Source of the DNA: Geitlerinema sp. PCC 9228
Lineage (GTDB): Bacteria > Cyanobacteriota > Cyanobacteriia > Cyanobacteriales > PCC-9228
Assembly: GCF_001870905.1 (NCBI RefSeq)
Contig: NZ_LNDC01000073.1
Coordinates: forward strand, 1-49,191
Direction of reading: 5' to 3'
DNA length: 49,191 bases
The notes under the pieces are model-generated. The model was not told where the DNA came from. It worked only from the letters and a program-made list of their open reading frames with translations, and searched no databases. Each line of letters begins with the position of its first letter. Within the stretch, counting starts at the first letter, position 1. Below are positions 17,605 through 49,191 of the stretch, in pieces. Made by a program: the position numbers and the translations under genes.

Positions 17605-18110
17605 ATGTCAGCTACGAATTTAAGCTCAAGCCGACATGCCGCCAGATTCACGCCATCGATTGGAAATTATGGGCTCAGAGAACGTAAAGATGGGGTCAAA
17701 TCCCGAAAATCGCCTGTCAACGCCTGCCATTTAACATGCGACCAGCTGAATACCTCATTCCCGCCGATGCCCCTCGCCCTACCTATGCCAGTCAGTGCCA
17801 GGTATTCAGCTACGCCAAGAAAGACCATCCGCAACTGAAAATCCCCCAATTACAAGTTTTGCAGCACAAGCTGTTTGCAAACTCTCAAAAGTTTGGAGAC
17901 CGCATGGATGGACATATATCCACGGGGATTTGGTTTTTGGTTGGTTGAAGAAAAAAGGGCGATTTCGCTCCTTTGTTTTCCCTAAAGTCAAGGAAACCTG
18001 TATGTATCGAAGGGAATCCAATGGACTTTCCCCTTCCCGATAGCTTCGTGGTAGGAGCCCGGATACGAAATAGCCACAATGGGCTACCATGAAGGTTATT
18101 GAAACCAATC
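17605..18110 (+). pseudogene. TnpB N-terminal half, frameshifted remnant (IS200/IS605)
   Basis: Three frames carry consecutive pieces of one TnpB N-terminus: YGLRERKDGVKSRKSPVNAC in the first (about 17660-17730), EYLIPADAPRPTYASQ then PQLKIPQLQVLQ in the second (about 17745-17875), and KKKGRFRSFVFPKV in the third (about 17948-17990). A last piece, PLPDSFVVGARIRN, follows near 18030-18070. These match the order of conserved segments in cyanobacterial TnpB (YNYALRE, EYIIPADAP, VLQ, FPRFKK-RSFVFP, PIPDGFVVKQ). Nothing of the RuvC domain follows. At least three frameshifts and the missing C-terminus make it non-functional. It sits right after the solo right end at 17470-17532. Confidence 0.65.
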
Positions 18111-27936: not shown

Positions 27937-28058
27937 CCTTAGTTTGCCGTGGTTCCTTGCGATCTGAATTTCTACGAAAATTTTTACCAAACTTTCCCGA
28001 TCGTTTCTGGCAACAACGGAAGAAGAGAATGGTAGATGCACCCTGATGAGTGAGTTAT

Positions 28059-28085
28059 CCCTGGCACCCAGCCAGGGTTTTTTTT
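28059..28085 (+). terminator. Rho-independent terminator
   Basis: Stem CCCTGGC / GCCAGGG with loop ACCCA, followed by eight Ts. It lies about 120 bp after the ABC exporter stop. Confidence 0.85.
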
Positions 28086-28160
28086 GCTTTTTTGCCCGAA
28101 TCGCCTCGCTAATCCCATTTCTGAAAAACAACGATTGTCTGGAATTGCTCAATTGCCCTG

Positions 28161-33388: not shown

Positions 33389-33517
33389 TGGCAGGTTTCA
33401 AGCCCCGTGCTTCTAGCACGATCTTATTTGCTTCTTTTTTTCCTTCCTCGGAAATTTTTTCGGGAAGAAAAAATGGTGAACGACAGACTTGAAGGAAGTT
33501 TCAGAACCTTCTTAAGA

Positions 33518-34083
33518 ATTTTGGCCTCGAGCATGAAACAGCCCTAGCTTCCCGAGGGCTTTGTGGTTAAACAGGTACAAATTCTAAAAAGAGCGAGCGG
33601 GTACTATATTATTTTATCCGGTGCCAGCTGATGTAGAGGTTCCCCAACCATCTATAACTGGTGCTGAGCTACGCCGAAGCAGCGGTCATGCCATCGGATT
33701 GGATGTGGGGTTGGAAAGCCATTTGGCTACCAGCGAGGGTGGATTGATTGACAACCCACGATTGTTCGTGAAGGCTTCTGGCAAGCTGAAATGGCTGCAA
33801 CCAAAGCTCAACCCGTAGAAAAAGGGTTCCAGGCGTTGGCACTTGATTCAACATCGCATTGCCAAATTATAAGAACATATAACCAAATCTCGAAAAAACT
33901 TTTTCTTGAAGTGGGCTCACCATTTGTGCAACCAAATCGAGGTGTCGCAAGTACCTCCGGAGAGGGGGAAAAAGGCTTGTCGAGGGTCCCTGTTACCGGG
34001 GATGGACTAGTTCATAGCGAATCTCTTCACAGGCACACTCAATGAAACGAGAATCTCACGAATTCTCTTGGTGAGAGTGTCAA
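33518..34083 (+). mobile_element. Decayed TnpB element with internal deletion (IS200/IS605), copy A
   Basis: The frame starting near 33518 reads MKQP-stop-LPEGFVVKQVQILKRASGYYIILS, a conserved TnpB segment. A frameshift then gives PADVEVPQPSITG and SSGHAIGLDVG (RuvC-I Asp), LATSEGGLIDNPRL and, past a stop, KKGSRRWHLIQHRIAKL. The sequence KWAHHLCNQ then joins directly to the 3' end: about 320 bp present in the other copy (48374-48692) are missing, removing RuvC-II and the zinc finger. The right end finishes at 34083 in a hairpin and GTGTCAA. The protein is dead, but the 3' end is well kept. The left limit is uncertain because the N-terminal region has decayed. It ends 15 bp from the convergent end of the ABC exporter gene. 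Confidence 0.75.
33939..34083 (+). ncRNA. Probable omega/reRNA scaffold at right end of TnpB copy A
   Basis: The last 145 bp match 48224-48371 of the other copy after reverse complementing. They include GAGGTGTCGCAAGTAC at the start, GAATCTCTTCACAGGCAC in the middle and GAGAATCT...GAGAGTGTCAA at the end. In IS200/IS605 elements TnpB uses an RNA transcribed across this end, with the guide lying just beyond it; here the guide would begin at 34084. That an RNA is made is inference. Confidence 0.5.
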
Positions 34084-34097
34084 GAATAGCCATGCAC

Positions 34098-48223: not shown

Positions 48224-48371
48224 TTGACACTCTCACGAATAGAATTCGTAAGATTCTCGCTTCATTGGGGGTGCCTGTGAAGAGATTCGCGAAGAGAGTT
48301 ACTCCATCGCCGGCCACAGGAACCCTCGACGAGCATTTTTCCGCCCTGTCCGGACGTACTTGCGACACCTC
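48224..48371 (-). ncRNA. Probable omega/reRNA scaffold at right end of TnpB copy B
   Basis: Matches 33939-34083 across its length: GAGGTGTCGCAAGTACG..., GAATCTCTTCACAGGCAC, and the final hairpin with GAGAGTGTCAA. The expected guide would start at 48223 going down and run into the leader of the GPH symporter gene. RNA production is inferred from the element family. Confidence 0.5.
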
Positions 48372-48572
48372 AATTCAAGACCACTTGTGCTGCTGCCACC
48401 ACGTCTCGATGGGTTTAATAGCCGCAGTGGAGCAGAAATGAGTTCTTTGAGAAAGCGGCTTTTCGCTTTTCCCCCTATGGACACCACAATGGGGACAAAT
48501 TTGACTGGTTTGTTTGGCCTCTACTTTGGCCAAGTATTTACCGCCCTTCAAACAGACCCAAGACAAAATGGA

Positions 48573-48596
48573 CTTGTGCTGAGCTACGCCGAAGCA
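48573..48596 (-). repeat. 24-bp repeat inserted in tnpB (inner copy)
   Basis: A 24-bp unit (minus-strand reading TGCTTCGGCGTAGCTCAG...) that adds eight codons, CFGVAQHK, between GEFL and SILSWVC, a junction that is continuous in other TnpB proteins. It is the exact inverted copy of 48947-48970. Confidence 0.65.
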
Positions 48597-48946
48597 TAGA
48601 AACTCGCCCCAAGTCGCATCGAGACAGAATTTCGCTAGCCGACTTCGCCCAAGAACTTTCAAATTCAGGCCCTCGGCAAAAATGCTGTCAGCTTGGTTGC
48701 ACAAATGGTGAGCCCACTTCAAGCAAAAGTCTTTGCGAGCTAATGTGAGGTGTTCGTACAATTGGGCGATGCGATGTTGAATCAAGTGCCAACGTCTGGA
48801 ATCCTTTTTCTACAGGTTGAACTTTTGTTGCAGCCATTTTAGCTCGCCAGAAGCCTTCAAGAACAATCGTGGGTTGTCAATCAATTCACCATCGCTGGTA
48901 GCCAAATAGCTCATTTTACCCACATCCAATCCGATGGCATGACCGC

Positions 48947-48970
48947 TGCTTCGGCGTAGCTCAGCACAAG
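48947..48970 (+). repeat. 24-bp repeat in tnpB (outer copy)
   Basis: An exact inverted copy of 48573-48596, about 350 bp away. It encodes CAELRR-S in front of SGHAIGLDVG on the minus strand. The other element carries the same unit at about 33661-33681, so this insertion predates their split. A diverged copy lies outside tnpB at 30034-30056. Confidence 0.65.
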
Positions 48971-49043
48971 TTATAGGTGGTTGGGGAACATCGAATCCGC
49001 TGGCATCGGATCAAATGATATAGTACCCGCTCGCTCTTTTCAA

Positions 49044-49191
49044 GTGAAACTAAGCCAGGCAGTTGCCCACCCGACTCGTCTTCACAACCGGACTTGATAC
49101 TTTCGCATCATCCGGGGACTCAACAACTTGGCTCTTGTCATGAGTACCAAGACTACCATCATTGGCAGTTTTTGCATCGTGGCAATGTTTG
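49044..49191 (-). mobile_element. Group II intron, 3' end (domains V and VI), partial
   Basis: On the minus strand, 49121-49085 forms a domain V-like hairpin: CCGGA, UGAU, a C-GAAA-G loop, AUCA, a two-base AG bulge, UCCGG. Directly after it, 49084-49044 forms a domain VI-like stem of about ten pairs with loop GGCAAC and an unpaired A followed by GUUUCAC, placing the branch-point A eight bases from the 3' end; the intron ends in AC. The next base starts the tnpB codon TTG, homologous to CTA at 33584 in the intron-free copy A. The bases before domain V read GAGUCCC rather than GAGC, so the catalytic triad may be altered. The rest of the intron, with any reverse transcriptase gene, lies outside the window. 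Confidence 0.7.

Follow-up and report, generated by a model that had tools for sequence, protein, structure and literature searches.

The right end of the window, by which we mean the whole 49,191-nt stretch of DNA analysed here, carries the 3′ end of a group II intron that abuts an internal codon of a tnpB gene. It is very probably a cyanobacterial intron of the HNH-maturase kind that lies in sense orientation in an IS200/605-type tnpB pseudogene and is now a non-splicing fossil within a fossil. Judging from sequence, its relatives in other cyanobacteria apparently sit on the sense strand, splice-ready, inside intact tnpB genes, and do so repeatedly, in many cases at active-site codons. TnpB is an RNA-guided nuclease related to Cas12.

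The intron occupies positions 49044–49191 on the minus strand, and tnpB resumes at the next base, 49043. The ribozyme is assigned to group II by the Rfam model RF00029, which matches 49044–49118 (−) with 30.2 bits (E = 1.8e-4 for the segment). This score lies below the 40-bit gathering score, so that a scan of the window at gathering level misses domain V/VI; the covariance-model check proposed in the initial annotation thus returns domain V, as a weak match. A search of the strain’s own genome gave nine such group II sites. The domain V hairpin with a GAAA loop and a two-base bulge, first read from the letters of the sequence, is recovered by folding and by the RF00029 match, and folding likewise places the branch-point A of domain VI correctly upstream of the …CAC end (Table 1). 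Six further 3′ ends of the same intron lie on five other contigs (C15 (twice), C94, C86, C111 and C59) and match the window copy at 90–96% over 148 nt. Because all six stop at the base equivalent to 49044, the 3′ boundary is exact, and the intron ends precisely where the tnpB coding sequence resumes, as had been claimed. A complete copy on C86 is 2414 nt long, begins with GTGCG, ends with TTTAAC, and encodes an intact protein of 602 aa with RVT_N, RVT_1, GIIM and HNH domains. The GUGYG 5′ end and domain I are present in the C86 and C59 copies. The RT/maturase is complete in C86; the window holds only its C-terminal tail, the last 73 nt being the counterpart of the end of the C86 maturase gene.

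Table 1. Features of the interrupted tnpB locus and of the uninterrupted tnpB copy in the window
Feature	Position	Strand	Basis
Intron-encoded maturase, C-terminal (HNH-domain) tail	49119..49191	−	93% DNA identity to the C86 intron end; contig stops here
Domain V, GAAA tetraloop and 2-nt bulge; AGC triad and basal pairs lost (GAGTCCCCGG for GAGGAGCCGG)	49082..49118	−	RF00029, comparison of family copies, folding
Domain VI, bulged A 8 nt from 3′ end; intron end …TTTCAC at 49044	49044..49081	−	Folding; 3′ end common to six other copies
tnpB 3′ exon, pseudogene, TGA at 49011–49013 and TAG at 48810–48812	48375..49043	−	Translation; PF01385 and PF07282 over cut-off
IS200/605-type element, right end (…GTGAGAGTGTCAA)	48224..48374, approximate	−	Same sequence ends copies C186, C107, C57 and copy A
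Copy A, truncated and frameshifted tnpB, site uninterrupted; empty site only	33557..34084, approximate	+	Sequence and translation; 93% match to exon side at 33587–33626
Small repeat, right part (ends …ATGAAACAGCCCTAGCTTCCCGAGGGC), abuts copy A	33443..33556, approximate	+	Whole repeat inside C107 tnpB, left end in C169

The genome also holds nested and deleted forms of this intron. Positions 1–353 of C15 contain tandem intron 3′ ends with a break within the HNH codons, and two or three intron 5′ ends are stacked at the right end of C95 (L095) and on C168 (L167). A mini-intron of ∼520 nt on C111 (8790–9310, L012) keeps both ends but has lost the maturase gene and the greater part of its interior. 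Elsewhere in the window, nitrogen stress-induced RNA 1 (NsiR1) is matched at 28030–28086 (+) with 45.1 bits, over its gathering score.

The 3′ exon belongs to a tnpB gene by its matches to PF01385 (OrfB_IS605, 39.6 bits) and PF07282 (Zn-ribbon, TNB, 27.2 bits), and it is not an open reading frame, with TGA and TAG in frame. The insertion point lies between the codons for …VKQVRV and LKRASGYY. Seven tnpB copies run uninterrupted through this point (C186, C107, C57, C161, C13, C171 and window positions 33587–33626); since they match the exon side only, they represent empty sites. The copy within the window, copy A, had been put forward as the empty site in the initial annotation. It is continuous across the site, but it is a truncated, frameshifted pseudogene that is cut off a few tens of nucleotides upstream of the intron site by a repeat also found within the C107 tnpB, and we reject it as proof of an intact host gene. 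Both tnpB copies of the window are thus pseudogenes. The TAG of the window exon is also present in copies A, C107 and C13. The host tnpB lineage was thus probably dead already, and the intron would have entered after that death. The small repeat, which has inverted ends (AGCAGGGCTGTTTCATT…AATGAAACAGTCCTGCT), lies within tnpB a few tens of nucleotides upstream of the intron site in C107 (L109), in C169 (L111) and at ∼33443–33556 of the window. A third tnpB relic, at 17656–18035 (+) of the window, is an N-terminal fragment with stops that is related to the C186 TnpB.

The window is the whole of contig C73 and ends at 49191 inside the intron; the 5′ half and the 5′ exon are unassembled. Contig C15 begins with the same bases as those at which C73 breaks, which is the pattern that a repeat is expected to leave in an assembly graph. 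Using two types of intron 5′ end and the tnpB N-terminus as queries, we found that no intron 5′ end recovered from the assembly (C86, C59, two on C111, C95, C168 and a 25-nt stub on C58) comes after a tnpB N-terminus. The C59 copy lies ∼60 nt after the C-terminus of a different tnpB. Two candidates for the other half of the window intron were rejected: the right end of C111 has a 5′ flank that is not tnpB and an EBS1 region (GGTATCTCTCAGACC) that, by eye, does not pair with the tnpB target, and the flank of C95 is not tnpB either. Presumably, the 5′ half and the 5′ tnpB exon exist and went unassembled because both are repeats; a contig made of the tnpB N-terminus and the intron alone would be easily lost, being all repeat. 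Alternatively, the 5′ flank of the window intron might not be tnpB, either through a flank swap by recombination between copies or through fusion of a tnpB 3′ fragment to the intron 3′ end. Such a history would suit an assembly in which no intron 5′ end stands beside a tnpB N-terminus, and it has a parallel in genome G040, where an intron has a tnpB 3′ exon and a non-tnpB 5′ exon. However, a short-read assembly would probably lack a fragment consisting entirely of tnpB N-terminus and intron, and the contig does break inside a repeat, with C15 starting at the same bases; we therefore consider a non-tnpB flank unlikely. The exact exon boundary and the relatives described below argue instead for insertion within tnpB, not beside a tnpB 3′ fragment. 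From the original proposal of a group II intron inside tnpB with an intron-free copy nearby, the genuine sense-oriented intron abutting tnpB coding sequence stands, as do the uninterrupted copies in the window and the genome, while the 5′ tnpB exon is one that we infer.

The catalytic triad of domain V, AGC or CGC, is required for group II intron catalysis. At the triad position the window copy has CCC, whereas AGC is kept in C86, C59 and the second C15 copy; domain V accordingly starts with GAGTCCCCGG in the former and GAGGAGCCGG in the latter three. Comparison and folding indicate that the window domain V has lost the triad and the basal pairs and that the opposite strand has not changed to compensate. 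Domain VI, including the bulged A, is preserved. Among the related introns scored, 106 of 110 have AGC; the remaining four appear to have been extracted from the wrong position, and one of them (L297) does retain the triad. The CCC type occurs with exact 3′ ends in four places: C73 (the window), C15:1–148 (the first copy there), C94:87567–87714 and C111:9163–9310. The triad is therefore lost, by the window copy or by the whole subfamily to which it belongs. This loss would leave the window copy unable to splice, and its description as self-splicing fails on two counts, the absent triad and the exon TGA and TAG. Because of these stops, even perfect splicing would not restore TnpB, and no TnpB comes from the window locus, transcribed or not. 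One point sits awkwardly with our reading of a dead intron: the same triad loss is found in four separately located copies, which would be surprising if it abolished mobility. The GAGTCCCCGG-type domain V may have reached four places by gene conversion, with assistance in trans, or because it is a variant that works. A live, self-splicing window intron whose host IS survives with little TnpB expression could appeal to the well-kept domain V loop and bulge, domain VI branch A and 3′ end, and to splice-compatible insertions in intact tnpB among relatives, yet the AGC triad is replaced without compensation and the exon carries stops, one of them common to other tnpB copies, which makes it very improbable. 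The accompanying idea that the intron lets its host element persist at low TnpB expression accordingly is not supported at this locus, where the triad is gone and the exon has stops.

We searched genomes of the same order with the C86 maturase and found the intron family in 115 of 196. We collected 126 loci, two of which duplicate others (hence ∼124), and included the sequence on both sides of the intron wherever this could be had. The flanks, oriented by their intron, were searched on both strands with a TnpB profile made from nine proteins. In 24 of the ∼124 loci the intron junction borders TnpB coding sequence, always on the intron’s own strand and never on the opposite one (L184, L185, L187, L190, L203, L205, L207, L214, L216, L218, L219, L221, L222, L224, L225, L226, L227, L248, L252, L275, L278, L283, L297 and L298). 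This count leaves out loci with tnpB merely near the intron (L243, L244, L279, L295, L204/L180, L191 and C59) or recognisable by eye alone (L228 and L249). The 24 are not phylogenetically independent, and L216/L218 and L219/L221 are duplicated units. When the flanks were joined at the predicted splice sites, at least 12 of the 24 gave one TnpB frame across the junction, for example …GCVRVVWND/ALAICKQ… in G034, …VLGIDLGRTDI/TVTSEG… in G178, …CELDRD/FNAAINIL… in G002, …ADRD/VAAAQVL… in G011 and …VETEES/YTSKAS… in G117 (slashes mark the junctions). Pfam identifies the joined proteins of G034 and G169 as TnpB. Several of the introns are inserted at codons for catalytic residues, namely the RuvC-I Asp, the RuvC-II Glu and those of the DRD motif.

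Entry by base-pairing predicts that the EBS1 of each intron matches the 5′ exon of that same intron. One column of the alignment of intron 5′ regions stands out in this respect, with a pairing score of 4.0 of 6 for the intron’s own exon compared with 2.05 for shuffled exons; across 91 distinct introns, none of 20,000 shuffles did as well. The tnpB subset behaves in the same way (3.7 versus 2.1, also 0 of 20,000). The tnpB introns of the relatives thus look like real, retargeted insertions in which EBS1 tends to match the intron’s own exon. Some of these introns may also move together with their hosts. In G169, a tnpB holding two introns head to tail (L304 and L305, the second starting at the last base of the first) is present twice, as 6.58-kb copies that are 99.9% identical, with unrelated flanks and IS200/605-type hairpin ends. 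Similarly, G154 has two copies of an IS whose RuvC-II Glu codon carries an intron (4.25 kb, 99.7%), and these units too end at IS hairpins. Joint transposition of IS and intron is the simplest reading of both cases, since separate homing poorly explains the same tandem pair in both G169 copies. The nested mobility suggested in the initial annotation is thus well supported by the duplicated IS::intron units of relatives, and not by the window locus. In such relatives, pairing between EBS1 and exon would set the insertion site, splicing would restore TnpB from apparently working tnpB genes, and the IS would carry the intron to new places.

Two explanations of the wider pattern deserve consideration. 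It is quite possible that tnpB is a common host just because it is plentiful and dispensable, and that the introns favour neither tnpB nor its active-site codons. Transposase genes are frequent hosts of group II introns (PMC4238363). Insertions of the present family also occur in other genes, dcd among them, and outside tnpB too they are sense-biased (20 to 4, counting 200 aa or more), which weakens sense-only orientation as a tnpB-specific trait. Moreover, none of the 18 plasmid copies inspected lies inside tnpB; together with the split dcd, these rule out tnpB as the exclusive host. Against abundance as the whole explanation, tnpB makes up just ∼0.5% of the genomes (787 PF07282 hits in 40 genomes, ∼204 Mb in total, at 1.2 kb each), so that by this rough estimate ∼0.6 of 124 loci would be expected at a tnpB junction versus the 24 seen, an excess of ∼40-fold; even the share in the tnpB-richest genome (114 in 8.5 Mb, ∼1.6%) would predict 2 loci. 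The location of several sites on catalytic codons also counts against it. More tentatively, and in our view rather doubtfully, one family may have made tnpB a regular home, entering RuvC catalytic codons, switching between tnpB genes by EBS1 change, travelling with the IS and gating TnpB (possibly also guide-RNA) by splicing; it would then be a group II counterpart of the IStrons, with the window locus as a dead relic.

Several other insertions of the family were seen in the survey. L189 (G033) splits a dcd-like (dCTP deaminase) gene in frame, and on cyanobacterial plasmids L324 and L333 lie between two parts of a conjugative coupling-protein-type gene (TrsK-like/type IV secretion DNA-binding) on the same strand. 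Two copies in G032 (L190 and L191) sit at the same short motif (AAGAATCACCG.ACCT…GTCGG); in L190 this motif immediately follows tnpB and resembles the right end of an IS. The reverse nesting occurs in Microseira wollei NIES-4236 (L183), where a tnpB element lies inside the HNH-coding part of a group II maturase gene.

Known systems share parts of this arrangement. RmInt1 of Sinorhizobium meliloti is a group II intron in the transposase gene of ISRm2011-2, and as here the IS protein would need splicing; however, RmInt1 is a class D intron in a different IS family, whereas the host here is an IS200/605-type tnpB and the window copy is dead (PMC4238363). IStrons likewise combine a self-splicing intron with an IS of the IS200/605 or IS607 type that carries ORF B (tnpB), but theirs is a group I intron at the 5′ end of the element that splices the whole element out, whereas here a group II intron interrupts tnpB (PMC4227781). 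The window ribozyme is of group II, and its 3′ end abuts an internal tnpB codon, unlike the group I intron at the 5′ end of an IStron. In Halorhodospira, group IIB introns occur together with an IS200/605 element, ISHahl1, lying in gene cassettes next to it rather than inside tnpB (PMC7923331). The CL-type group II introns of cyanobacteria show a similar multi-copy expansion; in the parts consulted, the survey that describes them names no tnpB host, and the cause of CL multiplication is left open there (PMC8919778). By our own reading the present family is CL-type, and in this genome introns are nested in introns on C15 and C95. The literature searched, from which subscription papers were mostly absent, contained no account of a group II intron within tnpB, although one may already have been published.

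The window locus itself is decayed, and its value is as a pointer to the wider pattern. Group II introns in transposase genes are known, and tnpB as their host appears unreported in the literature searched. The relatives provide natural test systems: intact tnpB frames interrupted by introns whose domain V is intact, in some cases as duplicated IS::intron units. Splicing control of an RNA-guided nuclease, and whether the nuclease aids persistence of the intron, can be addressed there. The same relatives bear on why CL-type introns multiply in cyanobacteria, a question that the CL-type survey leaves open (PMC8919778).
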